Shown here: piece by piece, positions 10,015 through 43,592 of the stretch
How the letters are laid out: every line of letters starts with the position of its first letter
Numbering within the stretch: position 1 is the stretch's first letter
Origin: Pseudobutyrivibrio sp. YE44
Lineage (GTDB): Bacteria; Bacillota; Clostridia; Lachnospirales; Lachnospiraceae
DNA length: 64,000 bases
Direction: 5' to 3'
Assembly (NCBI RefSeq): GCF_900104335.1
Contig: NZ_FMXT01000006.1
Location: forward strand, 62,001 to 126,000
Made by a program: the position numbers and the translations under genes
Notes under the pieces: generated by a model
Seen by the model: only the letters and a program-made list of their open reading frames with translations
What the model was told of the DNA's origin: nothing
Database searches by the model: none

Positions 10015-10110
10015 TAGTCCGTCAGTTACGCCTACAAGCCATAGATATCTTCTGCTCAACTGAAGAAAGTTTCACAGAAGACATCTATGAGCTTGATGTC
10101 TACTGACTCA
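10015..10110 (-). repeat. Structured repeat R, copy 1
   Basis: One of five copies of a 90-95 nt imperfect palindrome. On the minus strand it starts GAGTCAGTAG and ends TAACTGACGGACTA, so the outer arms GTCAGT / ACTGAC pair. A long middle stem (CATAGATGTCTTCTG with CAGAAGATATCTATG) has one G-T pair. The tip is GAAACTTTC..AGTTGA. It lies between the two sugar permease genes and ends just before the ribosome-binding site of the second. Confidence 0.85.
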
Positions 10111-10122
10111 TCTAAAATCCTC

Positions 10123-10151
10123 AGATTCATATAGACTTTTTATATGAATCT
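10123..10151. other. Perfect hairpin between permease genes
   Basis: AGATTCATATA and TATATGAATCT pair perfectly around a 7-base loop. The T-rich flank is on the plus strand, so it is not a terminator for the minus-strand operon. It may protect or separate the two parts of the mRNA. Confidence 0.5.
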
Positions 10152-10158
10152 ATTATTT

Positions 10159-11043
10159 TTACATCTCGTATGGTTCTGTTTTTACTACCTTGTTAATAAA
10201 TAATGTAACGGCCAAGCAAAGTACCAAGAGCAACACGCCGATGGCGCTGGCATAGCCATACTTAAAATATTTAAAGCCTTGCTGGTAAAGGTGAGTAGCA
10301 AGAACCTCTGTCTTGTGGTTTGGTCCACCTTCTGTCATGTTGAAAATCATATCGAAGAATTTTAAAGAACCAATTGCATTTAGTGACATTGCGGTTGCAA
10401 CCATAGGTCGTATGAGCGGGAGAGTGATATATCGGAAGCTCTTGACCTTGTTACAACCATCAATGTAACTAGCTTCATAAAGTGATTTGCTTATGCCGGA
10501 AATCTGTGCCATGTAAAGCATCATTGACTGTCCAACATATTGCCATAACGCAACAAAGGCGATTACCCACATTGGAAGGATGATGAAACCTTTTGTATCC
10601 ATCAGCCATAAAGGTCCTTCAATACCAAACTTCTGGATAAGCTGGTTGATACCAAGCTTTGGGCTGAAGATGAACATCCACAAAAGACCTAAAGCTGCAG
10701 ATGAAAGAACACATGGAAGATAAATAATGTTTTTGAACAGGTTTCTTCCTTTATCTATATTTGTTAGAAGAGCCGCTAAGAAGAGGCCCATAATAAGCTG
10801 TGTCACACAGGAATAAATCAGAAAGAAAATTGAATTCTTTAAAGCGATGTGAAGTGTTTTATCCTGAATTAATCCTTTATAGTTTTTTAATCCTACAAAC
10901 TTTGCAGGAGTCAGAGCATTGTAATCGCAGAAGGAATAATACACTGACTGTAAAATAGGAATGAACAATATAAACGTAAATAATATTAATGCTGGTGCCA
11001 TGAATATAACGATGGCTTTTTTGTTTCTTAATAATTTATCCAT
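10159..11043 (-). CDS. Carbohydrate ABC transporter permease, MalF type
   Basis: The 294-residue permease has a first helix (AIVIFMAPALILFTFILFIPIL) and further helices typical of MalF/UgpA proteins. The EAA motif reads YEASYIDGCNKVKSFRYITL. It forms the channel together with the MalG-type partner encoded downstream. It lies between the binding protein gene and the MalG-type gene in an operon ending with GH43. No ATP-binding subunit is encoded in the operon, so a shared sugar ATPase (MsmK/UgpC type) elsewhere on the chromosome is likely to energise it. Confidence 0.92.
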   Translation of the reverse strand: MDKLLRNKKAIVIFMAPALILFTFILFIPILQSVYYSFCDYNALTPAKFVGLKNYKGLIQDKTLHIALKNSIFFLIYSCVTQLIMGLFLAALLTNIDKGRNLFKNIIYLPCVLSSAALGLLWMFIFSPKLGINQLIQKFGIEGPLWLMDTKGFIILPMWVIAFVALWQYVGQSMMLYMAQISGISKSLYEASYIDGCNKVKSFRYITLPLIRPMVATAMSLNAIGSLKFFDMIFNMTEGGPNHKTEVLATHLYQQGFKYFKYGYASAIGVLLLVLCLAVTLFINKVVKTEPYEM

Positions 11044-11133
11044 AACTTGTTTTCCTTACATGATTTTTGGTAAAAGAAGTGGGGCGCAGGGAAGTTGCGC
11101 CCCATATAATAAAGGTATTGAAGAAAAAGAATG

Positions 11134-12411
11134 TTATCGGCAGTTTGCCTGGTAGTACTCTTCCATGTCTTTTGCGGCATCAGCAGGTGTTAAATCACCA
11201 AGGAATACTGAAACCATTGTGTCATCGAAGTGTGCACCTGTTTCTGTTGTAGGCATTGACTCGTTGTAGAATCCGAATGTGCCCTTTGCATTTTCAAAGA
11301 TATCCATTACATATGAAAGCTGAGCTGGAGCAGCTGATGCATCGTACTCAACCTTTGTTACAGGAATCTTTCCACCAACTTCTGCTGTATACTTCTGAGC
11401 TGTGTCATCTGTGAAGTACTTCATGAATGCTGCGCAAGCTTCAGGATTCTTTGTTGATGAGCTCATGCAAAGTGAATCTGACTTAGCAATAAGTCTTTCA
11501 ACACCTGGGAACTGGAATACGCCACACTTAGACTCGAACTCTGGGTTCTCACCGTTGATCTGACCGATTGCCCATGAACCCTGGATAAGGATTGCAGCTT
11601 CTTCGTTGTAGAAGTTTGCTGTAGCAACGTCGTTTGTATCACCAGCAGCTGTTGTCTGGAAGTACTTAGAAAGGTCTAAAAGCTTATTAGCAGCAGCTTC
11701 AAGTTTTCCATCCTCCCATGAAGCAGAACCATCTGCAAGCTTAGCAAGGTCAACGCCTTCAGCTTCGCAAAGGTAACCAGCTACCATTGAAAGACACCAA
11801 GCTGTACCAGCTGAGATAGTGATTGGTGTGTAACCAGCCTTCTGGAGCTTGTCGCAAGCGTCAAGCATTTCGTCCCAGTTTGTAGGAACCTTTGCGCCGG
11901 CCTTTTCAAACATCTCTGTGTTATAGAAGCAGCAAGCTGCAGCTGTGTTAAGAGGTACAGCGTAAATCTTGCCGTCATATGTCTGCTGTGTAAATACTGC
12001 ATCACTTGTGAAGGTATCCTTCCAACCATCTGCAAGATAGTCATCAAGTGGAGCTGCGATACCAGGAGCTACATAATCTGTAAGCTGTGGACCTGGGCTG
12101 ACGATGAATACATCAGGTGTCTCACCTGCAGCAACTAAAGCATTTAATTTGTCGTAGTACTCTTCAAGGTTTGTTGTAACAACGTTTACGTGATACTGAC
12201 CTTCATAATCTTTGTTGAATCTCTCAACGTTCTCTTTGTATCCAAGAGATATAAGATCCTGAGTAGCATCAAGGTCATCCCAGAACATCCAAGTGATTTC
12301 TTGAACGCCGTCGCCTGACGCTGAATCAGATGAAGATGATGAACCGCAACCAGTGAAGACTGATGCGACCATCAATGCTGACATTAAAGTCGCGATGAGT
12401 TTCTTTTTCAT
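11134..12411 (-). CDS. Sugar ABC transporter substrate-binding lipoprotein
   Basis: This 425-residue protein is the extracellular receptor of the sugar transporter. It has a lipoprotein signal with FTGC and the lipid cysteine at residue 22, followed by a Ser-rich stretch. The body matches family 1 solute-binding proteins (EITWMFWDD near the start, LDDYLADGWKDTFTSDAV, ILIQGSWAIGQI later). It is the first gene of the GH43 operon, with GGAGGAGAC before the ATG, and lies divergent from the AraC-type regulator. The ligand is probably the oligosaccharide later cut by the GH43 enzyme. Confidence 0.93.
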   Translation of the reverse strand: MKKKLIATLMSALMVASVFTGCGSSSSSDSASGDGVQEITWMFWDDLDATQDLISLGYKENVERFNKDYEGQYHVNVVTTNLEEYYDKLNALVAAGETPDVFIVSPGPQLTDYVAPGIAAPLDDYLADGWKDTFTSDAVFTQQTYDGKIYAVPLNTAAACCFYNTEMFEKAGAKVPTNWDEMLDACDKLQKAGYTPITISAGTAWCLSMVAGYLCEAEGVDLAKLADGSASWEDGKLEAAANKLLDLSKYFQTTAAGDTNDVATANFYNEEAAILIQGSWAIGQINGENPEFESKCGVFQFPGVERLIAKSDSLCMSSSTKNPEACAAFMKYFTDDTAQKYTAEVGGKIPVTKVEYDASAAPAQLSYVMDIFENAKGTFGFYNESMPTTETGAHFDDTMVSVFLGDLTPADAAKDMEEYYQANCR

Positions 12412-12763
12412 TACGTCTCCTCCTTTTTTGACAAATGATAATCCCCCGATTTTGCTTCATTTGTCTGTTAACTTTTTTATTAATTTAAATCTATCACACA
12501 ATTTGTTCACATTCTTTAAAATTGTTGTTAGTTGATTATCAAATCTTGCTCTTGTTTTAATAATCGGAAACTGCCGTTTGTGAATAATCTATGAATTGGA
12601 TAGCTGGATATAGTGTATTATTGACAAAAATGGTGCTGAAAAGAGAAAACTACTTGTGCATCCTCTTGATTTTTTTTAGTATAAGCGCAAAAATTGTATG
12701 AGCAATATTTTTCAATTATTGCTCTGGGGTTAGGACATCAAGCATCATAGAAAGGGAGAAGAA
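12412..12763. other. Divergent control region, sugar operon / araC-type gene
   Basis: This 352-bp AT-rich gap contains no credible gene. It must hold both promoters; a TTGACA on the plus strand near 12623 lacks a good -10. A hairpin (GAGCAATA at 12700-12707, TATTGCTC at 12717-12724) lies in the probable leader of the regulator gene. I could not define an operator with confidence. Confidence 0.5.
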
Positions 12764-13642
12764 ATGATAGAAAACCTTGATGGCATTTTTGAGACTGTAA
12801 ACTATAAGCAGAGTACTAGTATTAAGCTCTATGATAATACTCAGTACGAGGATTATCCTATGCATTGGCATCCTGCAATTGAGATAGTTATGCCAGTCGA
12901 AAACAACTATAAGATGATATTTTCAAACGGGGAGGTTGTTCTGAAAGAGGGGGATATTTGTATCATTTGTCCAGGCTGTGTTCATTCTATTGTGGCACCG
13001 CCTACAGGTCGACGTATTATTTTTCAGCCAAACACAACCACTCTTAGATTTATGAGAGAGGTGGAAGTGCTGTTTTCAATTATGTCGCCATATTGTGTAA
13101 TCACTCCTGAGGAGTACCCAACAATTCACCATACTATTAAAGATATGCTGGTGGAGATTAGGGAAGAGTATATGTCAAGTGCTCCATTTTCAGAGGTGAA
13201 CATTTATAGTAAACTATTGGAGATGCTTGTTCTTATTGGGCAGAATTATTCCAACACAAGTAATAAGAGTGCAGATTACAGTCCTATTGTAAAGGAAGAG
13301 TATGCGCCAAAGTTTTTGGAAATCTGTGATTATATAAACGAGCATTGTTCAGAGGACTTAAAGCTAGATGCCATTGCTGATATGAGTGGCTTTAGCAAGT
13401 TCTATTTTGAGAGATTGTTCAAACAGTTTACAGGTACAAGCTTTTACAAATATGTTAATCAAAAACGTATAGCTAAGGCACAGGAGCTTCTTGTAGAGCC
13501 TGGTATTTCTGTAACTGATGTGGCAATCAATTGTGGTTTTACATCCATATCTTCGTTTATACGAATGTTTAAACTTCAAAAGGGATGTACACCTACAGAG
13601 TTCAAGAGCATGTATTGGACTACAGAAGTTAAGAAAGCATAG
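12764..13642 (+). CDS. AraC-family transcriptional regulator
   Basis: The 292-residue protein has an N-terminal sugar-sensing cupin (YPMHWHPAIEIVMPVENNYK, then LKEGDICIICPGCVHSI) and a C-terminal AraC DNA-binding domain with two helix-turn-helix motifs (LDAIADMSGFSKFYFERLFK and VTDVAINCGFTSISSFIRMF). It is divergent from the sugar ABC/GH43 operon and is its likely activator. AAAGGGAG precedes the start. The next gene begins 13 bp later. The inducer is not known. Confidence 0.92.
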   Translation: MIENLDGIFETVNYKQSTSIKLYDNTQYEDYPMHWHPAIEIVMPVENNYKMIFSNGEVVLKEGDICIICPGCVHSIVAPPTGRRIIFQPNTTTLRFMREVEVLFSIMSPYCVITPEEYPTIHHTIKDMLVEIREEYMSSAPFSEVNIYSKLLEMLVLIGQNYSNTSNKSADYSPIVKEEYAPKFLEICDYINEHCSEDLKLDAIADMSGFSKFYFERLFKQFTGTSFYKYVNQKRIAKAQELLVEPGISVTDVAINCGFTSISSFIRMFKLQKGCTPTEFKSMYWTTEVKKA

Positions 13643-13655
13643 GTAAAGATTTGTA

Positions 13656-14327
13656 ATGAGATTAATTTTGGTAAGACATGGACAGACGGATTTGAATGTT
13701 CAGAAACGACTTCAGGGAAGCTCGGAGATTCCTTTAAATGAAAGGGGCCGTCAGCAGGCTGCTGAGACTCATCAGTTTGTAGTAAAAAATGGTTTAGTTC
13801 CAACAAAAATTATATCAAGTCCTTTGGGACGCGCCATTGAAACAGGATGTGTGGTGGCTGGAATCGACATTAGTCAGTATGCTATAGACTCAATATCAGC
13901 AGAGAATAAACCGTCTCAAGTGGAAATCGATGATAATCTCATTGAGATGGCCTTTGGCATATATGAGCAGAAAAATATGGATGAAGAGAATCCTGCATTT
14001 ATAGCAGAGTGTTTTGATCATCCTGAAACTTATAATCCTCCAGAGGGTGGAGAGAACTATGACCAGGTTGTTGCCAGGGCGGCTGCCGTTGTAGAAAAGC
14101 TTCGCAGTCGTATTGCCTCAGGCGAGTTTGGGGATAGCGACATTGTCATGCTTGTAAGCCACGGGGCTCTTAGTCATGGTATGTTTGAATACCTGAAAAA
14201 GACTCCTAGATCGGCTTACTGGGATGTAGATTTCAATAACTGTGCTATAGCAGAAATTTTCTTATCTGAAGATGGCAAATCGGACGATTACAAGTTTATA
14301 TCTGACGGATTTGAGAAGAACTGGTAA
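13656..14327 (+). CDS. Histidine phosphatase family protein
   Basis: The 223-residue protein belongs to the phosphoglycerate-mutase-like histidine phosphatases. The catalytic motif is LVRHGQTD with His8 as phosphate acceptor. NERGRQQA and the second histidine in LVSHGALSHGM are also present. These enzymes hydrolyse small phosphate esters or act as mutases, and the substrate cannot be read from the sequence. It follows the AraC-type gene by 13 bp and may be cotranscribed with it. Confidence 0.88.
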   Translation: MRLILVRHGQTDLNVQKRLQGSSEIPLNERGRQQAAETHQFVVKNGLVPTKIISSPLGRAIETGCVVAGIDISQYAIDSISAENKPSQVEIDDNLIEMAFGIYEQKNMDEENPAFIAECFDHPETYNPPEGGENYDQVVARAAAVVEKLRSRIASGEFGDSDIVMLVSHGALSHGMFEYLKKTPRSAYWDVDFNNCAIAEIFLSEDGKSDDYKFISDGFEKNW

Positions 14328-14419
14328 AATAGAGGTATAGTATTGAGGTCTATTGGAAAAATAATTTAGGAAGTTCTAGAAGATAAAGCTGGAAGATATA
14401 GCTGGGGAAGAGAGTTTAC

Positions 14420-15253
14420 ATGAAGAAAACACAGGGGATTTTAGAATACTTCTTTATCATCTTGGGAGCGGTTATGGCTAGTTTTTCTGTTGCCTTGATT
14501 TTGCTTCCAAACGATGCTATAGACTATGGAACTGCAGGGGTGGCAATCATAATTAGTAAGTTGACTGGGCTGTCCTTGTCATTATGCGTAGTTTTTGTCT
14601 TTGTGCCTTTCATATTTGCAGGTTTTTTGGTGCTTGGAAAGAAGTTTACCTTGAAGGCAGCTATAGGCTCTTTATTCTATACTATTGGCCTGGATTTTTT
14701 TGAGAAGATTCCTTTTGAGCTGAATACAGAGCACTTTTTGGCAGTTGCCTTTGGTGGAGCAATCCTTGGGGCAGGCCTGTCATTGATTCTTCGAAACGGA
14801 GGCTGCATAGACGGTTCAGAAATCTTAGCAAACATCATCATAAAGAAACTATCTGATAAGACTGGCCGCAACTACAGTATGACACCGGTGTTACTTTTGT
14901 TCAACGCTATGGTTTACGCTACGGTGTTTGTGGTAATTGATGTGACAGCAGCCCTTCTAAGCTTGCTGGTTTATGTGGTGGCAACAGCAATCATCGACCA
15001 TTACACCGACCACTTTGAAGCTATCAAGCAGGTCACAATTATCACCCAAGATCCTGATAACATCATTGCTGACATCAAAGAACAGCTAAACAAAACCTGT
15101 ACCATCATGGATTCCAGAGGTGCCATCGCAGGAGAGAACAACACACTTATTTGCTACATAAGCTACTTTGAACTTCCTATTATGAAGGACATTATATCCG
15201 CTCATGCAGGAAGCTTCAGCACCGTGTCTACTATTGATGAGATATTGAGGTAG
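14420..15253 (+). CDS. YitT family membrane protein
   Basis: The 277-residue protein has about five membrane helices in the first 190 residues. A soluble C-terminal DUF2179 domain follows (VTIITQDPDNIIADIKEQLN...TLICYISYFELPIMKDII). This is the standard layout of the YitT/YpjC family, whose transport role is unsettled. The motif GGCIDGSEILANII in the membrane part is typical. It has its own terminator downstream. Confidence 0.9.
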   Translation: MKKTQGILEYFFIILGAVMASFSVALILLPNDAIDYGTAGVAIIISKLTGLSLSLCVVFVFVPFIFAGFLVLGKKFTLKAAIGSLFYTIGLDFFEKIPFELNTEHFLAVAFGGAILGAGLSLILRNGGCIDGSEILANIIIKKLSDKTGRNYSMTPVLLLFNAMVYATVFVVIDVTAALLSLLVYVVATAIIDHYTDHFEAIKQVTIITQDPDNIIADIKEQLNKTCTIMDSRGAIAGENNTLICYISYFELPIMKDIISAHAGSFSTVSTIDEILR

Positions 15254-15316
15254 AGGATATGGTATAATCTTGGCAGGAGGACAGATTATATGACCTTCTA
15301 AGAGAGGGTATGGAAA

Positions 15317-15365
15317 AACAGGAGCATCAAATCCATTTTGGAAGTGTTGTTCCTGTTATTTTTTT
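15317..15365 (+). terminator. Probable terminator after the yitT-like gene
   Basis: AACAGGA (15317-15323) pairs with TCCTGTT (15351-15357), followed by ATTTTTTTT. The loop is long (27 bases), so strength is uncertain. Confidence 0.5.
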
Positions 15366-15399
15366 ACATAGGTGACAATATCCTCAATATATCACTTCT

Positions 15400-16452: not shown

Positions 16453-16578
16453 ATATGATTCCTTTCATTAATAAACCTAAAAATATGGTAGCACGGAACT
16501 TACTTTGTATACAATGGGATTTTTGGTGGATTATATGATAGAATACAAAAGTTGAATTATAGAATTGAGGTTTAAACG

Positions 16579-16755: not shown

Positions 16756-16757
16756 TT

Positions 16758-17936: not shown

Positions 17937-18088
17937 GTAATAATTGACAATAAATTAACAAAAATACAAAAAAGTACAAAATCAAAAACAATGCTCAAAA
18001 CCACTGTTTTTTCATAAAAAAGTAGTATCATAACTATTGGTTTTAGAAAACTAACAATCTTTTAAAGAAAGAAAAGAGGAAATAAATT

Positions 18089-20532: not shown

Positions 20533-22299
20533 ATGAGTAAGTGGTTATTGCAAAGAAAAAGTGCAGATTATGCAGGTCTTAGCGCAAAGCTTGGGGTGGA
20601 TCCAGTTATAGTTCGCCTCATGGTTAATAGGGGACTAAATACCTATGAGGAGATGGAGGAATATCTTCATCCATCGCTTAATAGCTGTGGAGATCCACAT
20701 TTATTTGCAGATATGGATTTAGCCTGTGAGCTTCTCATGGAGGCCATTGATGAAGGGCAGAAGATTCGCGTGGTAGGTGATTACGACGTGGATGGAATAA
20801 TGTCTACCTACATTCTCACAAGCGCAATTAGAGAGGTTGGTGGTGATGTGGACTATGCTGTACCTCATCGAATGGTGGATGGCTACGGTATTAATCCTGA
20901 CATGGTGCAGCAGGCCTATGACGAGGGTGTGAGATTCATCATCACCTGTGATAATGGAATTGCTGCAGCGCCAGCTATTGATCTTGCAAAAGAGCTTGGT
21001 ATGACTTTTGTTGTTACTGACCATCATGAGGTTCCTTTTGAGGTTGCCGAAGACGGTGAGACCAAAATCCAGAAGCTTCCAAATGCAGATGCAGTTGTTG
21101 ATCCTAAACGTGATGATTGCCAATATCCTTTCAAGGGGATTTGTGGTGCCCAGGTGGCTTGGAAGCTGACAGAGGTTCTTTTTGAGTTCCTTGGCTTGGA
21201 AAAGGAACAGTCAGACGCATATCTTCAGTTTGCCAGCATTGCCACCGTATGCGATGTTATGGAACTGAAAGGTGAAAACAGGGCGACAGTTTATCACGGC
21301 ATCAAAGCCATAGAGCACACTGATAATATTGGTATCAATGCTCTTTTGGCGCGAAATGAGCTAAAAGGAAAGCCACTTAGCTGTTACCATCTTGGATTTA
21401 TTATTGGACCTTGTCTTAACGCCAGCGGTCGTCTTGATACTGCAGGTCGTGCTATTGAGCTTTTGATGGAGGAAGATCAGGCCAAGGCTCTTGCAATGGC
21501 AAACGAGCTTGTTGAGCTTAATGCTCAGAGAAAGAACATGACTCAAATTGGCATTGATAAGGCCAGAGATATGATTGAAAATAGCGATTTGATTAATGAC
21601 CGCGTTCTTGTAGTTTACATTCCAGAGCTTCATGAGTCTCTTGCTGGAATTGTAGCAGGAAGAATTCGCGAGGCATACTGTAAGCCTGTGCTTGTAATCA
21701 CAGATGCAGAAGAAGGTGCGAAGGGAAGTGGTCGTTCAATTCCTGCTTATAATATGTTTGAAGAACTTACTGGCGTGAAGGATGTGTTCACCAAATTTGG
21801 CGGTCATCCTATGGCAGCAGGCGTTTCTCTTCCTACTGAAAAGATTGATGAATTGCGTCAGCGCTTGAATGAGAGATGCACTCTAACTGAGGATGATATG
21901 CAGGAGGTTATAAAGATTGACTGTGACATGCCTCTTTCATATATCACTGAAGAATTGGTGGATAGCTTAGATATGCTGGCGCCTTTTGGAACAGGAAATA
22001 CAAAGCCATTGTTTGCCTTGAAGGATGTGGCGATTTTGAAAGCGGCCTACATCGGAAAAGAAGGCCAGTATTTAAGACTTACCGTTGGAACAGAAAACGG
22101 TGGCACAATGACTGCAATGTTGTTTAGAAATGTACCTGAATTCGAAAATCTTGTAGATGAAAAATATGGTGCTGGTACCTGGGATGACCTTTGTGCGGGT
22201 CACAATCCAGGCGTTAAAATGAGCATCATCTACGAACCATCAATAAATGAATTCCGTGGCAACCGTAGCATACAAATTATGCTAGAAAACTTTAGGTAA
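20533..22299 (+). CDS. recJ: Single-stranded-DNA-specific exonuclease RecJ
   Basis: RecJ degrades single-stranded DNA 5' to 3' in recombination and mismatch repair. The 588-residue protein has the DHH-family motifs VGDYDVDGIMSTYIL, ITCDNGIAA and VTDHHEVP in the N-terminal half. The DHHA1 part follows (KGSGRSIPAYNMFE, KFGGHPMAAGVSL), then a C-terminal OB-like region. Length matches the E. coli enzyme. A structured repeat begins 6 bp after its stop codon. Confidence 0.95.
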   Translation: MSKWLLQRKSADYAGLSAKLGVDPVIVRLMVNRGLNTYEEMEEYLHPSLNSCGDPHLFADMDLACELLMEAIDEGQKIRVVGDYDVDGIMSTYILTSAIREVGGDVDYAVPHRMVDGYGINPDMVQQAYDEGVRFIITCDNGIAAAPAIDLAKELGMTFVVTDHHEVPFEVAEDGETKIQKLPNADAVVDPKRDDCQYPFKGICGAQVAWKLTEVLFEFLGLEKEQSDAYLQFASIATVCDVMELKGENRATVYHGIKAIEHTDNIGINALLARNELKGKPLSCYHLGFIIGPCLNASGRLDTAGRAIELLMEEDQAKALAMANELVELNAQRKNMTQIGIDKARDMIENSDLINDRVLVVYIPELHESLAGIVAGRIREAYCKPVLVITDAEEGAKGSGRSIPAYNMFEELTGVKDVFTKFGGHPMAAGVSLPTEKIDELRQRLNERCTLTEDDMQEVIKIDCDMPLSYITEELVDSLDMLAPFGTGNTKPLFALKDVAILKAAYIGKEGQYLRLTVGTENGGTMTAMLFRNVPEFENLVDEKYGAGTWDDLCAGHNPGVKMSIIYEPSINEFRGNRSIQIMLENFR

Positions 22300-22304
22300 T
22301 AAAT

Positions 22305-22398
22305 GAGCCGGTAGGCATCAAGCTCTTATATCTCTTAAGTGAAGCTTTCTATAGCTGAGCGGAGAGATATAAGGCTTGTAGCTGTAACCGGCGGATTA
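22305..22398 (+). repeat. Structured repeat R, copy 2
   Basis: It starts GAGCCGGTAG and ends TAACCGGCGGATTA. The outer arms are GCCGGT / ACCGGC, the inner arms CAAGC / GCTTG, the middle stem CTTATATCTCT / AGAGATATAAG, and the tip GAAGCTTTC..AGCTGA. It lies between convergent genes. Its final TTA is the stop codon, read on the minus strand, of the membrane protein gene at 22396-22791. Confidence 0.88.
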
Positions 22399-22791
22399 GC
22401 GGTCTTTTATTAGGTGGATTATTCCAATTATGATTCCCCTTATCAATGCAAAGATGAGGAACATCAGCATAAATCCCCATATACCAAAGACTATGTCCTT
22501 GAAATCCATCACACCTGAGTGTGATACCTTCTGCCCAATTTCTATTGCAAAGGTTATCAAAAGTACAAGTGTGAATACATAAATCCATGTGATGACAAGC
22601 ACATGGTCTGTCTTGGCAAGGAGGGTGAATAGTGGATGAATCAGAAATACCATAATCATTCCTATTGCTCCAATTACAATAAAGTGAAGTTCCTTGTCGG
22701 TGAAATATGTTTCATATGCATCATTCAATGACAAAATATATGTATGTGCCCGTGCAATTATGTTTAAAATGCCATATAAAAATGTGTTCAT
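22396..22791 (-). CDS. Small membrane protein, possibly VanZ-like
   Basis: The 131-residue protein has three to four hydrophobic helices. The segment FAIEIGQKVSHSGVMDFKDIVFGIWGF resembles the E-x-x-Q...D-x-x-D...G pattern of VanZ-like proteins, but this is a weak match. The function is unknown. Its stop codon falls inside structured repeat R copy 2. It is divergent from the phosphofructokinase gene. Confidence 0.65.
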   Translation of the reverse strand: MNTFLYGILNIIARAHTYILSLNDAYETYFTDKELHFIVIGAIGMIMVFLIHPLFTLLAKTDHVLVITWIYVFTLVLLITFAIEIGQKVSHSGVMDFKDIVFGIWGFMLMFLIFALIRGIIIGIIHLIKDR

Positions 22792-35932: not shown

Positions 35933-35995
35933 GTGTACACAAAAATAGTTAGTAATTAAGCCTGGTAAATAGGCTGATAAGGAAGTAATAAATTA

Positions 35996-36796
35996 ATGGA
36001 TTTTTTTAGTATTGCAAGTGGTAGTAGTGGTAATTGCATTTGTGTTGGAGATGACAACACACATGTAATGATTGATGCAGGTATTTCAGGTAAGAGAATA
36101 GAGGCGGGAATGAATCAATATGATTACACCACCGCTGATATGGCAGGCGTTTTGGTTACTCATGAGCATTCAGATCATGTGTCAGGCCTGGGAGTAATCG
36201 CTAGAAAATACCACATTCCAATTTATGGAACTGCTGCTACCATCAGAGCAATACGTTCTATGAAAAGCCTTGGGGCTATAGACGACACACTTTTTCACGT
36301 TGTTAGGCCTGACGAGGATTTCTCTATAGGTAGTCTTAATATTCACCCATTTCATATTAGTCATGATGCTGCAGACCCAGTTGCATATCGTATAGAAAAT
36401 TCAAAATCTAAGGTTGCAGTATGTACCGACTTAGGTTATTATGATGGCTATATTGTAGAAAATTTAACAAATTTGGATGCCTTATTACTTGAGGCAAATC
36501 ATGATATTCACATGCTGGAGGTGGGTTCATATCCTTATCCTCTCAAACAAAGAATTTTAGGGGATTATGGTCATCTTTCAAACGAGGCCAGTGGAAAGCT
36601 TTTAAGCTCTGTCCTCCATGATAATATTAAGCATGTCTTCTTAGGCCATTTGTCTCACGAAAACAACTATCCAGATTTGGCGTACGAGACCGTGCGCTTA
36701 GAGGTTACAATGGATGAAACCACCCCATACAATGCGAAGGATTTCAACATTACCGTAGCCTCCCGCAGCGACGTATCGGAGCGCGTTATCTTGTAA
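35996..36796 (+). CDS. MBL-fold hydrolase, YycJ/WalJ-like
   Basis: The 266-residue protein starts MDFFSIASGSSGNCICVG, the classical YycJ/WalJ beginning. It has the metal-binding motif THEHSDHVSGL (H-x-H-x-D-H) and later ligands in CTDLGYYDG and FLGHLSHENN. WalJ-type proteins are linked to DNA repair or cell-wall control in Firmicutes. The usual walRK genes are not adjacent. The structured repeat R copy 3 follows. Confidence 0.9.
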   Translation: MDFFSIASGSSGNCICVGDDNTHVMIDAGISGKRIEAGMNQYDYTTADMAGVLVTHEHSDHVSGLGVIARKYHIPIYGTAATIRAIRSMKSLGAIDDTLFHVVRPDEDFSIGSLNIHPFHISHDAADPVAYRIENSKSKVAVCTDLGYYDGYIVENLTNLDALLLEANHDIHMLEVGSYPYPLKQRILGDYGHLSNEASGKLLSSVLHDNIKHVFLGHLSHENNYPDLAYETVRLEVTMDETTPYNAKDFNITVASRSDVSERVIL

Positions 36797-36811
36797 GTAA
36801 TTATTTTAAGT

Positions 36812-36901
36812 GAGCTGGTAAGTAACAATCTCTTAGGTTTCTGAATGAAGCGTGTTAGCTGAATGAAGAAACTCTAAGGATTGTTACAGTAACCAGCGGA
36901 C
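36812..36901 (+). repeat. Structured repeat R, copy 3
   Basis: It begins GAGCTGGTAA and ends TAACCAGCGGAC. The second stem is a perfect 9 bp here (GTAACAATC / GATTGTTAC) where other copies have CAAGC / GCTTG. This is the most diverged copy. It ends 8 bases before the GGAG ribosome-binding site of the ACT gene. Confidence 0.85.
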
Positions 36902-36919
36902 CAGAAAAGGAGAACTCAT

Positions 36920-37195
36920 ATGGAAAACAAAGTAATTATTACCGTAGTAGGTAAAGACACTGTAGGTATCATCGCTAGAATCTGCACATACTTAGCAGGA
37001 AGCGGAGTTAATGTTTTAGATATTACTCAGACTATCGTCCAGGGGTTCTTCAACATGATGATGATTGTTGACATTGAGAAGGCTTCTAAAAACTTCGGCG
37101 AGATCCAGAAGGATCTTGAGACTCTTGGTGAGGAAATCGGAGTTCAGGTAAAGGCTCAAAAAGAAGAAATTTTTGAGAAGATGCATCGTCTATAA
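36920..37195 (+). CDS. ACT domain protein (UPF0237 type)
   Basis: The 91-residue protein consists of one ACT-like regulatory domain (IITVVGKDTVGIIARICTYLAGSGVNVLDITQTIVQGFF). ACT domains bind amino acids. It is encoded next to a DUF711 gene, a conserved pairing in many bacteria and archaea. AAAGGAGAA precedes the ATG. Ligand and partner are not known. Confidence 0.93.
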   Translation: MENKVIITVVGKDTVGIIARICTYLAGSGVNVLDITQTIVQGFFNMMMIVDIEKASKNFGEIQKDLETLGEEIGVQVKAQKEEIFEKMHRL

Positions 37196-37197
37196 GT

Positions 37198-37280
37198 ACT
37201 TTGCCGAGCTTGTTAAGGCAAAGTGCTTATGATAGCACACCCCTCTTTGCCGTAGGCAATCATTCATGGGTGTGCTTTCT
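37198..37280 (+). repeat. Double-hairpin spacer between ACT and DUF711 genes
   Basis: The first hairpin is ACTTTGCC (37198-37205) with GGCAAAGT (37217-37224). The second is GCACACCC (37235-37242) with GGGTGTGC (37268-37275), enclosing TTGCC-GTA-GGCAA and then CATTCAT. The second has the same plan as the pflB-pflA spacer hairpin read on the minus strand. It may weaken or stabilise the transcript between the two genes. Confidence 0.65.
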
Positions 37281-37300
37281 CGTAATATTAGGAGGATAAC

Positions 37301-38665
37301 ATGGTCAATATAAAAGAAGTAATCGAAACAAACAAAATGGTGGAAGAGCAGACACTTGATGTTCGTACCATCACCATCGGTATCAGCCTTCTCGAGTGCA
37401 TCGATTCCGATTTAAAGCTTGTTAATGAAAAGGTTTACAATCGCATTACAACGGTTGCAAAGGATTTAGATAAAGTAGCAAAGGAAATTGAGCGTGATTA
37501 TGGTATTCCAATCGTAAATCGTCGTATCTCAGTTACTCCTATTGCTTTAGTTGGTGGCGCTGCTTGCAAGTGCCCTGCTGATTTTGTTTCTTTGGCACAC
37601 ACTCTTGATAAGGCAGCTGAGGCTGTTGGTGCCAACCTCATTGGTGGTTATTCTGCCCTTGTTTCAAAAGGTATGACCACTGCTGATGAGATGCTTATTC
37701 GTTCTATTCCACAGGCTCTTTGCGAGACACAGAGGGTTTGTAGTTCTGTAAATTTGGCTTCCACAAAGACTGGTATTAATATGGATGCAGTCCGTCTTAT
37801 GGGCGACATTTTATTACAGGTAGCTGATCGTTCGAAGGACAGAGATTCTGTTGATTGTATGAAGCTTGTTGTGTTCTGTAATGCTCCAGACGACAACCCA
37901 TTTATGGCTGGTGCCTTCCACGGTGTAACAGAGGCAGATGCAATTATCAACGTTGGTGTTTCTGGACCAGGTGTTGTAAAGAAAGCCCTTGAGCAAGTTC
38001 GTGGTGAGAGCTTCGAGGTTCTTTGCGAGACTATCAAAAAGACAGCCTTCAAGGTTACTCGTGTTGGTCAGCTTGTTGCACAGGAAGCGTCAAAGCGTCT
38101 TGGCATTCCATTTGGTATTATTGATTTATCACTGGCTCCAACTCCTGCAATTGGAGATTCAGTTGCTGATATTCTTTGCGAGATTGGTCTTGAATATGCT
38201 GGTGCTCCTGGTACTACAGCTGCTCTCGCAATGCTCAACGACCAGGTTAAGAAGGGCGGCGTTATGGCCAGCTCTTATGTAGGTGGTCTTTCTGGTGCTT
38301 TCATTCCTGTATCTGAGGATCAGGGAATGATTAACTCAGTAGAGGCAGGTGCAATCACTCTTGAAAAGCTTGAGGCCATGACTTGCGTATGTTCAGTTGG
38401 TCTTGATATGATTGCCATTCCTGGTGATACACCAGCCACAACAATCTCTGGTATGATTGCAGATGAGATGGCTCTTGGTATGGTAAACCAGAAGACAACA
38501 GCAGCTCGTCTTATCCCTGTTATCGGCAAGGGTGTGGGCGATACAGTTGAGTTTGGTGGATTATTTGGTTATGCACCAATCATGCCTGTGAATAAGTTCT
38601 CTTGTGCAGATTTTATTAATCGTCAGGGACGCATTCCAGCTCCAATTCATTCATTCAAGAATTAA
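37301..38665 (+). CDS. DUF711 (UPF0210, PFL family) protein
   Basis: The 454-residue protein fits the DUF711 family ([44 protein letters not shown], and later [20 protein letters not shown]). A structural relation to glycyl-radical-like barrels has been proposed, but no radical glycine motif is present. The enzymatic role is unknown. It is downstream of the ACT gene, with GGAGG before the ATG and a strong terminator after it. Confidence 0.92.
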
Positions 38666-38680
38666 ATAAGATTATATTTT

Positions 38681-38724
38681 GACACCGCATCTGTCAGCTT
38701 GCTGACGGATGCGGTGTCTTTTTT
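38681..38724 (+). terminator. Terminator after DUF711 gene
   Basis: GACACCGCATC and GATGCGGTGTC form an 11-bp stem, with an inner GTCAGC / GCTGAC stem and a T run. Confidence 0.95.
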
Positions 38725-38804
38725 ATTTACATTTTTTTCATAAAAATCTAGTATAATCACATTGTTATATGTTTAGTCTTTTATTTTCCATTTAGAGGAT
38801 AATT

Positions 38805-39725
38805 ATGAATAAAAAGAGATTATTGATTGGACTAGTTTCATTGCTGATATTCATTCTATTGATGGTTTTTATCAATAATAAATATCAAAAGTTTGAAAAC
38901 AATCAAAATAATATTTCAAAAGAAGATGAAATACCGCAGGATATCATTGATGCAGCAAAGGGATATAAGGTAACTGAGTATGGTGGAGCCTATTCAATTT
39001 ATAATAGCTACAATGCTTCTGATGCTGTTGACTTGTCAGATAAAAATGGTAAGACCACAGAGCTAGAATTGCTAGATGCTTTAATTTTTGGATTGGGACA
39101 GAATAGAAAATTCCTTGATGAAAGAATGTTGTTTAAGGGATATGTGGTGGCTATCAAGGAATTAGACAAAACAAATCACTACAATACAGAAGTTACTATT
39201 TCAGATACAAAAGATGATACAAACAATACCATTGAGGTGTATTTTAACTGGTATGATGAACAGCCTATTCATCCGGGAGACATTCTGTTTGGAAAAGGCA
39301 TGCTTAGATACGAATTTGATAAAGATTATAATATTTCAAACGTATACATTAATGTTGAATTTAGCAGTGAAGTATGCTTCTTTTCAGAGGACGATGACAC
39401 TATAAATTATGATGAAAAGAAGGTTGAAATAAAGGGAGAAGGTCTTGAATTAGTAACGGTAAAGGGTTGCAGGAGCATTATTGGCGAAAAACTAGATAGA
39501 CCTGTAATAAAGACAGAAGGTAATTTATATTTGGTGGATAAGGAGTACAGATTATATTATGACATCAAACATTTTCCATATGACTATATAAGTCTAAGAT
39601 ACAGGGGAAATAATGGAAATGATGATTGGCTACTTTCTGAAATTGGAAAGAAAGTTACTGTACGGGGAATATTGTATTCAAACCATAAAGGTCAGATTTG
39701 GATGTATGGTACAAGGATTAAGTAA
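38805..39725 (+). CDS. Membrane-anchored protein of unknown function
   Basis: The 306-residue protein starts MNKKRLLIGLVSLLIFILLMVF, a basic end plus one helix. The rest is rich in Asp, Asn and Tyr and should be outside the membrane. It includes a possible OB-like part (MLFKGYVVAIKELDKTNHYN ... GKKVTVRGILYSNHKGQIW). No family was recognised. It is AT-rich and forms a pair with the next unknown gene, 12 bp downstream. Confidence 0.7.
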   Translation: MNKKRLLIGLVSLLIFILLMVFINNKYQKFENNQNNISKEDEIPQDIIDAAKGYKVTEYGGAYSIYNSYNASDAVDLSDKNGKTTELELLDALIFGLGQNRKFLDERMLFKGYVVAIKELDKTNHYNTEVTISDTKDDTNNTIEVYFNWYDEQPIHPGDILFGKGMLRYEFDKDYNISNVYINVEFSSEVCFFSEDDDTINYDEKKVEIKGEGLELVTVKGCRSIIGEKLDRPVIKTEGNLYLVDKEYRLYYDIKHFPYDYISLRYRGNNGNDDWLLSEIGKKVTVRGILYSNHKGQIWMYGTRIK

Positions 39726-39737
39726 TAGGGATTATAT

Positions 39738-40511
39738 ATGGATAAAAATAGATTGAGCGTACCAAAGAAAATAGCCGTTTGTCTTGTAGTTATTTTATTG
39801 CTACATGTGATTTCTTGTTTTCATTTTCAACTATATCGAGTTTTTTGTGCGAAAATATACTATAAGGTAAAATACAATATATCTCTTGATTATGCTGGCA
39901 GTATTACAAGTGATTCTATTCTTCTTAAGATGGAAGATGGCAATGATATATGCTGCATTCAAAATATATTTGGTATTGTCAAATATGATAGTTATGTTTC
40001 CTACAAATATGGTATGGAAGCAGCGGAAGAAATCCAAGAAATTGCTGATAATTATTTTGATGAAAGCCATACAGTTTACGGAGCTTTTGCAGATGGAGCG
40101 GCTGCATTTTATATGTATCCAATTAGAAAATGTAAAACCTTGGAAGGTTATATTTCACAGGATGAGGTGGAGGAAAATCATGTTATCTTTCTTCAACTTC
40201 CAAATGATAAAGATGATATAGATGACAGCACAATTGATGCCTTTTGGGAGGAGTGTAAAGACTTATATTCTGGTAGCACCTATAAAATTTATATTACAAG
40301 AATTCCTAGGAAGATATACGATGGAACTAAGGATTTAAAAGCTTATCCAATGGAAAAAGAAGCAATGTTTGTTCCAGAAAAATCTCAGTTGTTCTTAGAA
40401 AGTATCGATAAATATGGAACAGCAGATTATATGTGTGGGCATGATATAAATGATTATAATGGATTTATCATAAAACGATGTAATTTCAAAGATGGTGAAA
40501 TCTGGGACTAA
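39738..40511 (+). CDS. Membrane-anchored protein of unknown function
   Basis: The 257-residue protein has a helix at about 12-32 after a basic start (MDKNRLSVPKKIAV). The remainder is acidic and rich in Tyr, with no recognisable domain. It lies 12 bp after another unknown anchored protein and 19 bp before the precorrin-2 dehydrogenase-like gene. The anchor and AT-rich coding resemble its upstream partner, suggesting they entered together. Confidence 0.68.
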   Translation: MDKNRLSVPKKIAVCLVVILLLHVISCFHFQLYRVFCAKIYYKVKYNISLDYAGSITSDSILLKMEDGNDICCIQNIFGIVKYDSYVSYKYGMEAAEEIQEIADNYFDESHTVYGAFADGAAAFYMYPIRKCKTLEGYISQDEVEENHVIFLQLPNDKDDIDDSTIDAFWEECKDLYSGSTYKIYITRIPRKIYDGTKDLKAYPMEKEAMFVPEKSQLFLESIDKYGTADYMCGHDINDYNGFIIKRCNFKDGEIWD

Positions 40512-40530
40512 TTTTATATGAGGAGGGGTT

Positions 40531-41103
40531 ATGGCATATTTTCCAATGTTTGTAAATTTAACTGGGGCAAATTGTTTGGTTATTGGTAGTAGTGATGCGG
40601 TGTTGCGCAGGTCCGATGCGCTTCTTGATTTTGGGGCTAAGGTGAGAGTAATTGATAAGGATGAGTTTACGACCGATGATTTAAAGGGAAAGAAGGTTGT
40701 CCTTGTTGATACTGAAGATGAGGAAATTAATCTTCAGATTTCTATGCTTTGCAAAGATGCAGGTATTCCTGTTAATATATTAGGTAGACCGGATCTGGGC
40801 ACCTTTAGTTTTCCATCTTATGTAAAGGAAAGAGATTTGGTGGGGGCATTTTCTAGCAGTGGCAAGAGCACAGCTTTGGCAAAGTTTCTTGCAAATAAAG
40901 AAAAGGAAACTCTCACTCCAAAGCTTGGTGAATTAAACGAAATGCTTGGAAAGTGGAAGCAGCCAATTGAGGAGCTATTTCCACTTAAAGCTAGTCAGAA
41001 TAGTGCCTTTGAGCAGCTAATTGACTATGCATTATGCTACGATGGAATTCCTACCGATGAAGAAGTAGAGGAACTTCTAGGTGCTATTTCCATGACATTA
41101 TAG
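40531..41103 (+). CDS. Precorrin-2 dehydrogenase / ferrochelatase-like protein
   Basis: The 190-residue protein resembles the NAD-binding half of siroheme synthase (CysG-N/Met8). It starts MAYFPMFVNLTGANCLVIGSSDAVLRRSDALLDFGAKVRVI. The GAFSSSGKSTALAKFL motif corresponds to the family's STGGKSPALAK. These enzymes oxidise precorrin-2 and may insert iron to make siroheme. No other tetrapyrrole gene is in the window. The stop codon is the first three bases of structured repeat R copy 4. Confidence 0.85.
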   Translation: MAYFPMFVNLTGANCLVIGSSDAVLRRSDALLDFGAKVRVIDKDEFTTDDLKGKKVVLVDTEDEEINLQISMLCKDAGIPVNILGRPDLGTFSFPSYVKERDLVGAFSSSGKSTALAKFLANKEKETLTPKLGELNEMLGKWKQPIEELFPLKASQNSAFEQLIDYALCYDGIPTDEEVEELLGAISMTL

Positions 41104-41195
41104 TCCGCTGGTTACGGCTACAAGCATTATATTTCTACATTCAGCTGAAGAAAGCTTCATTTAAGAAATATAATAGCTTGATGCCTACCAGCTCA
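41101..41195 (-). repeat. Structured repeat R, copy 4
   Basis: On the minus strand it starts GAGCTGGTAG and ends TAACCAGCGGACTA. The middle stem is ATTATATTTCT / AGAAATATAAT and the tip GAAGCTTTC..AGCTGA. It is inserted in the opposite sense to both flanking genes. On the plus strand its TAG forms the stop codon of the upstream gene. Confidence 0.9.
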
Positions 41196-41225
41196 TTTTA
41201 ATATCTTAAGGAGAATAATAGAATT

Positions 41226-42260
41226 ATGAAATTTCCAAACTTCCTCCACGAGGGGGATACGATTGGGCTGGTGGCGCCTTCCTTCGGGTGCGCTGATGAG
41301 CCTTACAAAAGCTGTATGGATGCAGCAATAAAGAGATTTGAAGGAATGGGCTACAAGCTTGTGGAGGGTCCTAACTGTCGAAGAAATGATGGTATTGGAA
41401 TCAGCTCTACCCCTGAAAACTGCGGCAAGGAGCTTACAGATTTTTATTGCAGTGACGACAATGATATGCTCATTGCCTGTGGTGGCGGAGAGCTTATGTG
41501 TGAGACCCTTGATCATGTGGATTTTGAGGCAGTAAAGGCTGCCAAGCCTAAGTGGTATATGGGCTATTCTGATAACACCAATTTCACTTTTTTGCTTAAT
41601 ACAATTTGTGATACTGCGGCAATCTATGGGCCAAGCATTGGAGCCTTTGGAATGGAAAAACTTGAACCAGCCCTAGAAGATGTCCTTCAGGTTATCACCG
41701 GAAAGAAAACTACAGTTTCGGGCTATGATAGGTTCGAGGTAGAGTCCTTAAAGGATGGGGCCCATCCATTTGTAGGCTACAATCTTACAGAGAAAAAAGA
41801 ACTTCGATTGTTTATGGGTGAATCTGAAACCAATCGAGTGCCAGAATTCTCAGGAATTATTACAGGAGGATGCTTGGATTGTTTGGCAAATCTTGTAGGT
41901 ACCAAGTATGACAAGGTGGCATCCTTCAATGAGAAATATAAGAATCAAGGTGTGGTTTGGTTCCTAGAGGCTTGTGATTTAAATGTTATGTCTATTAGAC
42001 GTGCACTTTGGAATCTTGATAGAGCCGGTTGGTTCGTAAATACGAAGGGATTTATTATTGGTCGTCCGGCTTTTGCATGGAAACAGGAAATGATGGGCCT
42101 TGATCAGTATAACGCTGTGACAGGAATCCTTGGAAAGTATAATGTTCCTATTGTCATGGATGCAGACGTTGGACATTTAGCACCTGCTATGCCTATTATC
42201 TCAGGGGCACAGGTGTCCGTTGAGGCGGCAGAAAATATTACTTTGAAGTATCAGGTATAA
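41226..42260 (+). CDS. LD-carboxypeptidase (peptidase S66 family)
   Basis: The 344-residue protein starts FPNFLHEGDTIGLVAPSFG and carries the serine nucleophile in MGYSDNTNFTF, matching S66 enzymes. The family includes LdcA, which trims tetrapeptides in peptidoglycan recycling, and MccF, which cleaves microcin C. The absence of a signal peptide suits a cytosolic role in recycling or self-immunity. GGAG precedes the ATG after structured repeat R copy 4. Confidence 0.9.
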   Translation: MKFPNFLHEGDTIGLVAPSFGCADEPYKSCMDAAIKRFEGMGYKLVEGPNCRRNDGIGISSTPENCGKELTDFYCSDDNDMLIACGGGELMCETLDHVDFEAVKAAKPKWYMGYSDNTNFTFLLNTICDTAAIYGPSIGAFGMEKLEPALEDVLQVITGKKTTVSGYDRFEVESLKDGAHPFVGYNLTEKKELRLFMGESETNRVPEFSGIITGGCLDCLANLVGTKYDKVASFNEKYKNQGVVWFLEACDLNVMSIRRALWNLDRAGWFVNTKGFIIGRPAFAWKQEMMGLDQYNAVTGILGKYNVPIVMDADVGHLAPAMPIISGAQVSVEAAENITLKYQV

Positions 42261-42348
42261 CCACTGGCAAGCTGGGTTTGAGAATTGCCAGTCTAAATCT
42301 ATAAAGCTGAATAATTGTCAAAAAATTCTCTCTCTTTTGCGTAATGAG

Positions 42349-42357
42349 TGTTATAAT
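42349..42357 (+). promoter_or_regulatory. Extended -10 promoter of the dha operon
   Basis: TGTTATAAT is a perfect TGn-TATAAT extended -10. No consensus -35 lies 17 bases upstream. It is 37 bases before the dhaL start, so the leader is short. Confidence 0.6.
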
Positions 42358-42393
42358 TGAAATAACAATTTACGTTTAGGAGGGGGAATTTTT

Positions 42394-43014
42394 ATGTCTA
42401 CAAGAATTTATGATTGCTTGAAGGCCATTGGTGAAAGAATCATTGAGAATAAAGACTTTCTCACTGATTTAGACCGAGAGATTGGTGATGCGGATCACGG
42501 TGTCAATATGGCCAGAGGTTTTCAGGGAGTAATCGAAAAGGTGCCAGAGGATGAGGCTGATATTGGGGCAGCCTTAAAGAAAGCAGGTATGACTTTGCTT
42601 TCCACTGTTGGTGGTGCTTCTGGACCATTATATGGAACAGCTTATATGGAGGCAGCAAAGGTGTTTGCTGGCAAAACTGAAGTTACTGGGGAGGACTTCA
42701 AAGCGTCGCTGGCTGCGGCTATAGAGGGTATCAAAAAGAGAGGTCATGCTGAAAAAGGCGAAAAGACCATGCTTGATGCATTGATTCCAGCTTATGACAC
42801 TTTGTCTGAAAAGCTGAGTGGGGGCTCAGAATTTTTAGAAGCGTTAGAGGCTGCATGTCAGGCTGCAAATGAGGGAGTAGAGTTTACAAAGACAATAGCG
42901 GCAACAAAGGGACGTGCAAGCTACTTGGGAGAGAGAAGTATAGGCCATCAGGATCCTGGTGCAACCTCTCTTACTATCACATTGGAAACGATCAGAGACT
43001 TCCTTAAAGGTTAA
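42394..43014 (+). CDS. dhaL: Dihydroxyacetone kinase, ADP-binding subunit DhaL
   Basis: DhaL holds ADP, receives phosphate from DhaM and passes it to dihydroxyacetone bound to DhaK. The 206-residue protein has the magnesium-binding aspartates D27, D32 and D34 in DREIGDADHG. The nucleotide-loop GGASGPLYGTAYM follows, and later RASYLGERSIGHQDPGATS. It is first in a dhaL-dhaM-dhaK cluster. GGAGGGGG precedes the ATG. Confidence 0.95.
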   Translation: MSTRIYDCLKAIGERIIENKDFLTDLDREIGDADHGVNMARGFQGVIEKVPEDEADIGAALKKAGMTLLSTVGGASGPLYGTAYMEAAKVFAGKTEVTGEDFKASLAAAIEGIKKRGHAEKGEKTMLDALIPAYDTLSEKLSGGSEFLEALEAACQAANEGVEFTKTIAATKGRASYLGERSIGHQDPGATSLTITLETIRDFLKG

Positions 43015-43079
43015 AGGAATAGCTAAAATAGGGTTTTTACAAGATACAATGTACAAAGATTAATTGGGGGATTTTTGTT

Positions 43080-43475
43080 ATGGTAGGACTTGTTCTTGTT
43101 TCTCACAGCGCTAAAATCGCTGAGGGATTAAAGGATTTAACCGCCGAAATTGCACCAGATCACAAGGGAATTATAAGTGCAGGTGGAATGGAAGACGGTT
43201 CTATTGGTACAGATGCAGTTCGTATTTCCGAAGCAATTCGTCAGGCTAATGACGGAGACGGGGTAGTTGTGATGGCAGATCTTGGCAGCGGAGTTATGAG
43301 TTCAGAGACAGCAATTGAGCTTTTGGAAGACGAAGATATTAAAGTAAAGCTTGCAGATGCGCCAATTGTAGAAGGCACTATCGCAGCGGCTGTTAGCGCT
43401 ATGGTGGGCAGCGACCTGGAGGCTGTCCTGAAAGCGGCTGAAGACTGCCGTGGTGTGCGTAAGATAAATAATTAA
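43080..43475 (+). CDS. dhaM: PTS-dependent dihydroxyacetone kinase subunit DhaM
   Basis: DhaM relays phosphate from HPr to DhaL. This is the short form (131 residues) with only the mannose-type EIIA domain. The phosphorylated histidine is His9 in VLVSHSAKIAEG, and ADLGSGVMSSETAIELL is typical. The fused HPr/EI domains of the E. coli protein are absent, so general PTS proteins encoded elsewhere must supply phosphate. Confidence 0.94.
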   Translation: MVGLVLVSHSAKIAEGLKDLTAEIAPDHKGIISAGGMEDGSIGTDAVRISEAIRQANDGDGVVVMADLGSGVMSSETAIELLEDEDIKVKLADAPIVEGTIAAAVSAMVGSDLEAVLKAAEDCRGVRKINN

Positions 43476-43502
43476 ATATTTTATTACTTGGGGGCTTTTG
43501 AT

Positions 43503-43592
43503 GAGCTGGTAGCCATCAAGCTCTTATGTCTCTCAAGTGAAGCATTCTTAGCTGAGCTGAGAGATATAAGGCTTGTAGGTGTAACCAGCAGT
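43503..43592 (+). repeat. Structured repeat R, copy 5
   Basis: It starts GAGCTGGTAG and ends GTAACCAGCAGTT. The middle stem is CTTATGTCTCTCA / TGAGAGATATAAG and the tip GAAGCATTC..AGCTGA. It lies between dhaM and dhaK, in the gene direction. The 3' end departs from the GGAC of other copies. Confidence 0.88.

Follow-up and report, generated by a model that had tools for sequence, protein, structure and literature searches.

Are the dispersed palindromes of bacterial genomes selfish DNA, RNA control elements, or both? The question is raised by a structured repeat of ~92 nucleotides (nt) in Pseudobutyrivibrio sp. YE44. Five copies lie in a stretch of 64,000 nt (NZ_FMXT01000006.1, positions 62,001-126,000), here called the window, whose own numbering is used for copies 1 to 5. 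The repeat reaches about 100 copies per genome across this genus of rumen bacteria, with unusually clear strand-specific covariation, and it offers many natural replicates for the question. It also bears on what spreads such repeats where no matching transposase is found.

With a probability put at roughly 0.5, these repeats are dispersed non-coding hairpins whose spread either lies in the past or is slow, and which persist as co-transcribed RNA hairpins, located between co-directional genes or at gene ends. Maintenance at the RNA level fits best because the folding is strand specific, the copies are biased toward the sense orientation, and they occupy gene ends and the gaps between co-directional genes. 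The constraint would act on RNA. The tandem G.A pairs of the tip, the A/GUA internal loop and a bulged T would be what a protein or RNase recognises. The effect may be on mRNA processing, stability or termination, and the ribosome-binding site, immediately 3' of the hairpin, would stay accessible.

Covariation and strand-specific folding

The original prediction, made from the sequence of the window, placed five copies there on a shared plan of outer, inner and middle stems and a tip, with outer arms, tip and inner stem covarying. All five copies were found at those positions and on those strands, all fold on that plan, and the covariation is real. Over the stretches delimited in that prediction, each copy forms a single long, bulged hairpin with a folding energy of -36.7 to -45.9 kcal/mol and a tip of the GAAGC...GCTGA type. 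The five-copy consensus has 31 pairs, 12 of which show two-sided change. A covariance model built from the five copies (R1) recovered those five from the window at E <= 2.3e-25, plus three shadows on the opposite strand. A tRNA search of the window found none.

When R1 was applied to the source genome (3.24 Mb, 28 contigs) there were 109 matches, four of them shadows. On 77 stretches of that genome (the window, the match loci and further stretches) it gave 118 matches, and removal of nine shadows and one duplicate left the 108 distinct copies used here. The repeat is genus-specific, restricted to Pseudobutyrivibrio so far. In R1 searches run with Infernal under stricter filters, copies were detected in 24 of 25 Pseudobutyrivibrio genomes, the source genome included, at 1 to at least 99 per genome, and in none of 198 genomes from other genera of the Lachnospiraceae or 16 genomes from other families. 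An exact-pattern search of the GTDB collection gave nine matching stretches, all titled as Pseudobutyrivibrio, with P. xylanivorans MZ8 and Pseudobutyrivibrio sp. MD2005 among the strains.

For the covariation analysis the 108 copies were aligned with MAFFT, blind to structure, and all 4560 column pairs were ranked by a G statistic with average product correction. This is our own script and not R-scape; its yardstick is the other column pairs, without a tree-based null. Listed base pairs make up 21 of the top 26, where the list holds the 29 of the 31 five-copy pairs that map onto the alignment and was drawn up after the ranking was seen. The other five are frame positions (4-92 and 3-93), off-by-one neighbours (15-78 and 5-90) and a helix extension (35-60). 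In 74 copies from other genomes, the 20 highest-ranking column pairs include 15 from the same 29-pair list, and the 30 highest include 19. The earlier claim that a fold is under selection is borne out by covariation that is strong on this statistic and by strand-specific pairing, both with more copies and in other genomes.

That the pairing is strand specific is seen in the mispairs. The 3111 pair cells of the 108 copies comprise 2866 Watson-Crick, 114 G.T, 18 A.C and 113 other combinations. Without the three pairs in which G.T is common, the G.T:A.C ratio is 62:15 (bootstrap over copies 0.71-0.90), and in copies of other genomes it is 45:14. Mutation is expected to yield G.T and A.C equally, so the tolerance of G.T points to the strand as read as the folding strand. 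In the source genome the excess is weaker in antisense copies (18:8, versus 96:10 in the other copies, p = 0.009). This favours RNA over single-stranded DNA, as selection on RNA predicts.

Unpaired positions rank among the most conserved of the 108 copies. They can be followed in copy 2 (covariance-model match at 22302..22401, + strand, 118.4 bits). GTA at 22311..22313 (+; columns 10-12, conserved at 94/99/100%) is the 5' side of the asymmetric A/GUA internal loop, and GTAAC at 22384..22388 (+; columns 82-86, 98/99/90/98/95%) provides its 3' side and the closing pairs; the A opposite GTA is present in 94 of 108 copies. The single bulged T (22324..22324, +) is T in 104 copies. At the tip (22341..22358, +), GA at 22341-22342 stands opposite GA at 22357-22358 to form the tandem G.A pairs, an arrangement seen in 84 copies. 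The paired CAA/TTG segment is 97-100% conserved. The G, T, A and G of the GTAG motif are conserved at 94, 99, 100 and 79%, with the first two paired within the outer stem. Two known motifs, compared by eye only, were set aside: a kink-turn at base or tip (there is no three-base bulge) and an integron attC site (the arms read 5' GT / 3' AC, the opposite of attC).

A neutral quasipalindrome is another reading: template switching during replication would copy one arm onto its partner, and this alone would keep the arms complementary. Template switching at imperfect inverted repeats has been described in E. coli and yeast (PMC7202029, PMC3820800). There is also a candidate product among the relatives: G019 (L240, C7:170900-171650) has a perfect palindrome, GCCAGTAGCTTGATAGCTACTGGC, where G012 (L231:9085-9181) has a full copy, and the 3' side of the palindrome is the exact reverse complement of the 5' arm of the G012 copy. 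However, such copying predicts strand symmetry, and G.T lies far above A.C. Pure arm-to-arm correction is not enough for the conserved mismatches either: it would erase them, yet conservation is high at the bulged T, the G.A pairs and the A/GUA loop. It also leaves the orientation and position of the copies unexplained. As an account of the family it is very improbable, and in its pure form it was rejected.

Orientation, turnover and the search for a mover

Orientation and position relative to genes, as assigned with a home-made gene caller, provide the second line of evidence for maintenance as RNA. For the 108 copies of the source genome, co-directional gaps hold 62 sense and 20 antisense copies (p = 3.7e-6); 23 copies lie in convergent gaps and two in divergent gaps, and one has no upstream gene in its locus. 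The 71 copies examined in other genomes, drawn mostly from the best matches, are similarly biased: 47 sense and 11 antisense in co-directional gaps (p = 2e-6), 10 in convergent gaps, none in divergent gaps and three at locus edges. The background is 123 gaps from the window and six G012 stretches that were themselves picked for having copies, with 101 co-directional, 9 convergent and 13 divergent. Divergent gaps are thus nearly avoided (2/108 in the source genome and 0/68 placed copies elsewhere, versus 13/123). Where the downstream gene is on the same strand, the copy ends no more than 25 nt from its start in 38 of 65 cases in the source genome and in 32 of 47 in the others (end taken 10 nt outside the core). 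Given the sense bias across the genome, orientation is not indifferent. The original prediction had reasoned that copies lying in either sense were probably not cis-regulatory; given the sense bias, the avoidance of divergent gaps and the 3' ends close to start codons, that argument is not supported.

Within the window, copies 1, 3 and 5 are sense to both neighbours. Copy 1 (10012..10112, -, 104.8 bits; coordinates here are those of the covariance-model matches) lies between two ABC-transporter permease genes on the minus strand (10159-11043 and 9177-10004, both with PF00528) and stops 7 nt short of the start codon of the latter. Copy 3 (36809..36906, +, 87.1 bits) follows a metallo-beta-lactamase-fold gene (35996-36796) and stops 13 nt short of the start codon of an ACT-domain gene (36920-37195). 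Copy 5 (43500..43598, +, 105.8 bits) has a dhaM-like EIIA-man gene (43080-43475) on one side and a dhaK-like Dak1 gene (43628-44623) on the other. Only copy 4 (41098..41197, -, 117.4 bits) is antisense to both of its neighbours (40531-41103 and 41226-42260, +). Copy 2 follows immediately on a recJ-like gene (20533-22299, RecJ_OB/DHH) to which it is sense; its downstream neighbour is a weak open reading frame of 131 amino acids on the opposite strand, without a Pfam match. The ten neighbours of the five copies, nine of them with a Pfam match, are unrelated in kind, and no linkage to genes of one pathway was seen among them.

Presence differs between orthologous loci, a comparison that the original prediction had proposed; the sites of copy 1, copy 3 and the G012 copy at L232:10799 all vary. 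The copy 1 site is empty in seven of eight relatives: no more than 12-25 nt separate the aligned flanks there, which makes gain in the YE44 lineage the simplest reading; the eighth relative (G003) has a different element. At the copy 2 site the eight relatives show plain terminator-like hairpins (three), a remnant of the 3' half (one) or sequence that cannot be aligned (four). The copy 3 site is readable in 25 of 29 genomes (the source genome and 24 relatives), with the core repeat in six, a second module, described below, in three, a short, empty site in ten, remnant-like sequence in two and other sequence in four. At this same site G242 (L166) has a complete copy preceded by partial 5' halves of the repeat in tandem. 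No copy was found at L098:17829 in seven relatives, the left flank aligning only 91-115 nt away, or at L098:6727 in the three of seven relatives that could be aligned.

G012 and G019 are ~93% identical. Seven of the 11 G012 copies in the six stretches were compared: three are shared, one (the L232:10799 copy) is absent from G019 and three are reduced there. One shared copy differs by 12 substitutions, with four pairs altered on both sides; another is identical; the third has 21 substitutions and six pairs altered on both sides. G019 also has a stretch of ~1.8 kb (L244, C16:26600-28850) and a 90-nt hairpin-like insertion (L237, C17:199550-200350) that are missing from G012 at those places. Pairwise identity among the 108 copies has a maximum of 91.6% and a median nearest-neighbour value of 84.5%, and with no closer pair nothing points to a recent burst. 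From these comparisons the family is best read as old, with high turnover and without a visible burst.

The proposal that the repeat is mobile or has spread stands as far as dispersal and presence/absence go; a transposase, a target-site duplication and a recent copy were none of them demonstrated. When copy 3 in G009 is set against the empty G240 site, the left side is nearly scarless (TTTAA) and the right has ~3 extra bases. No target-site duplication could be fixed, several of the empty/filled pairs including extra flanking DNA.

One candidate for the mover is a Y1 (HUH) transposase that would recognise the folded strand by GTAG at its foot, the bulged T of the stem and the conserved tip, and move the element, as for REP (repetitive extragenic palindromic) or IS200-IS605-like single-strand DNA elements; the fold would then be kept for transposition and not for a function as RNA. 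REPs are recognised in a strand-specific way, with GTAG ahead of an imperfect palindrome that has a bulge (PMC8266576). Head-to-head pairs exist (L032, L034, L035, L104, L121 and L140), copies in the commonest base frame (frame 1, below) are mostly preceded by TTA, and the G.T excess fits a folded single strand. The Y1 family (PF01797) has matches in 8 of 16 genus genomes tested. The other eight are without a match, and six of these (G001, G005, G008, G012, G013 and G014) carry 42-89 copies; G012, for example, has 71 copies on two contigs. In the source genome (G000) there are four partial Y1 matches, three of them at contig ends (C6:5-130, C12:5-115 and C21:28369-28494), the pattern to be expected if a multi-copy IS200-like element interrupts the assembly. 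For a match to the ends of insertion sequences, which the original prediction had considered, the check covered Y1 loci: no copy lies in ten Y1-bearing loci of ~3 kb, seven of them from the genus. The copies are also about two to four times the length of REPs, none of the 108 are near-identical, and the model does not predict a gene-orientation bias. A Y1-moved element is accordingly an unlikely identity for the repeat, and its apparent likeness to REP recognition is best taken as a lead, not as membership.

Several points also weigh against maintenance as co-transcribed RNA. A G.T excess would also be expected from the folding of one DNA strand. The weaker excess in antisense copies is not repeated in other genomes (3:1 versus 38:12, p = 1), where counts are few and cells within one copy are not independent. 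Between copy 3 and its G009 counterpart there are 10 substitutions, with only one two-sided pair change and three pairs broken in one of the two. The G019 palindrome looks like a natural product of template switching, which does act on these arms; it may add to the covariation, but it cannot explain the conserved mismatches or the strand asymmetry. Finally, any regulatory role would have to be dispensable, because the sites, judged by the ten neighbours of the window copies, are not tied to one kind of gene, and they are often empty.

Base frames, nesting and a second module

The base of the stem was classified in 169 motif matches across all examined loci. It reads TGA/GGA (frame 1) in 56, ATA/GAG in 14 and TAA/GTA in 8; the 91 matches not assigned include long terminator-like stems, some then followed by a T-run. 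The flanks of the 56 frame-1 matches read TTA-RRTGAGC...GCGGAY-TA (left T 89%/A 73%, right T 94%/A 73%). Such TA-rich flanks would suit a degenerate, now inactive family of miniature inverted-repeat transposable elements (MITEs) with TA target sites of the IS630/Tc1 type, in which the structure would be a relic of inverted ends together with arm-to-arm correction. Bacterial MITEs are ~100-200 bp long and form stable stem-loops, many ending in TA (PMC2229807). IS630 was nevertheless rejected as the mover: its transposase domain PF13358 was found in none of 29 genus genomes, while the control was detected in 3 of 14 named genomes. There is no clean TA duplication in any empty/filled pair, the 91 matches were not assigned to frames 1-3, and the conserved internal loops and tip and the strand asymmetry are unexpected for a relic. 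A MITE origin of this type is therefore quite improbable.

Some copies are embedded in terminator-like stems. The source-genome copy at L098:1543 sits in the stem GAGCCCCTA...TAGGGGCT, where the G017 counterpart is a plain terminator-like GAGCCCCTATTTTTTAGGGGCTC; G022 and G005 carry different copies at this site, G009 has another terminator, and G010 could not be aligned. In place of the copy at L098:10645, a plain hairpin with a T-run stands in four of five relatives, and other sequence in the fifth. Copies also occur within copies. A strict motif count over the 108 copies gave three fully nested cases, seven with one half only and none inverted, versus zero in displaced control windows. Further nested cases were read by eye in L015, L018, L054, L158 and L162. 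Nested copies are oriented the same way as the outer copy.

The same base frames and terminator-like stems are occupied by a second structured module of ~130 nt, GGCAAGCGCGAG...GCGGGAGCATGA, which suggests modular hairpins. Examples include L047:1630-1755, L145:3294-3419 (-), L161:1061-1186 and L106:660-790. Thirteen copies were seen; a covariance model (R2) built from 10 of them gave, in 200 genomes, at least 17 matches in the source genome, four in G005 and single weak matches in two other genera (L247, E 9.7e-7; L248, E 1.7e-4). The module has no Rfam family at the gathering score.

One could imagine a modular hairpin economy, in which short mobile RNA-forming modules insert at the tips of hairpins already present (terminators, TGAG...CGGAYTA frames or other copies) and the hairpins grow by nesting. 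Modules without evident sequence likeness, namely the core repeat and the ~130-nt GCAAGCGCGAG...CGGGAGCATG, would then share the same frames and the same intergenic site, and what spreads would be a hairpin cap directed at hairpin loops. This idea is a doubtful one. If nesting and module swapping are true, they show how insertions at the tips can build up complex RNA hairpins.

Other repeats were noted in the same genomes. One subfamily keeps the lower stem but carries a different tip, GAGAGTATAGTGAAAACGATGA, which hardly varies; its members are found at L007:949, L094:1519, L097:10026, L138:1542, L139:1574, L140:7523 and on the minus strand of L154 near 634. In one case this tip stands directly in the TGAGC...GCGGACT frame. 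The L138 copy has no Rfam match above threshold. Four other dispersed repeats of the genus (L098:5845-6045, 6553-6696, 10152-10293 and 12849-13046) have multiple 72-94% matches across relatives and fold as hairpins.

Comparison with known repeat families

The original prediction could put no name to the repeat, and the Rfam search agrees with it. In Rfam release 15 there is no match at the gathering threshold in the window or in seven loci. A relaxed search gave nothing for copy 5 and sub-threshold matches only for copy 2 (e.g., MIR7696 at 21.7 bits versus 83); below-threshold matches are mostly to eukaryotic microRNA models, and a known Rfam RNA was rejected on these grounds. Carriage by phages or plasmids was rejected as well: one exact repeat pattern had no match in viral contigs, and copy 2 as sole query had none among phages and plasmids. 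Among the literature matches listed, which do not cover subscription papers, none appears to describe a repeat of this kind from Butyrivibrio or Pseudobutyrivibrio. Small folded repeats with a possible effect on co-transcribed genes are already known (PMC2229807, PMC3049150, PMC10969869). As far as these Rfam and literature searches tell, what is new is the family itself, the strength and strand specificity of its covariation, and its sharing of frames with a second module.

One close likeness is to the REP, BIME and REPIN elements associated with TnpAREP (RAYT), which are described as intergenic, imperfect palindromes of high copy number with GTAG and a bulge (PMC8266576); head-to-head pairs are a further likeness. 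REPs differ in being 20-50 nt long, in contrast to ~92 nt here, and in the present repeat GTAG is closed by the outer stem and the sense bias is strong. Several copy-rich genomes lack a Y1 match, and the Y1 loci examined hold no copy.

BOX, RUP, SPRITE, ERIC and Correia/NEMIS elements are likewise short dispersed repeats with folded transcripts and low current transposition (PMC3049150, PMC2229807). According to the same sources BOX is modular, SPRITE is terminator-like, and effects on co-transcribed genes have been proposed. The repeat of Pseudobutyrivibrio differs from them in its genus, its very strong strand-specific covariation, its conserved internal loops, its nested and terminator-embedded copies, and the lack of an IS630 domain in the genus genomes searched. 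Rickettsia palindromic elements are also repeats of a single genus, 105-146 bp in length, and form long stem-loops (PMC2229807). Those elements integrate into genes as in-frame fusions (PMC10969869), whereas the copies described here are intergenic.

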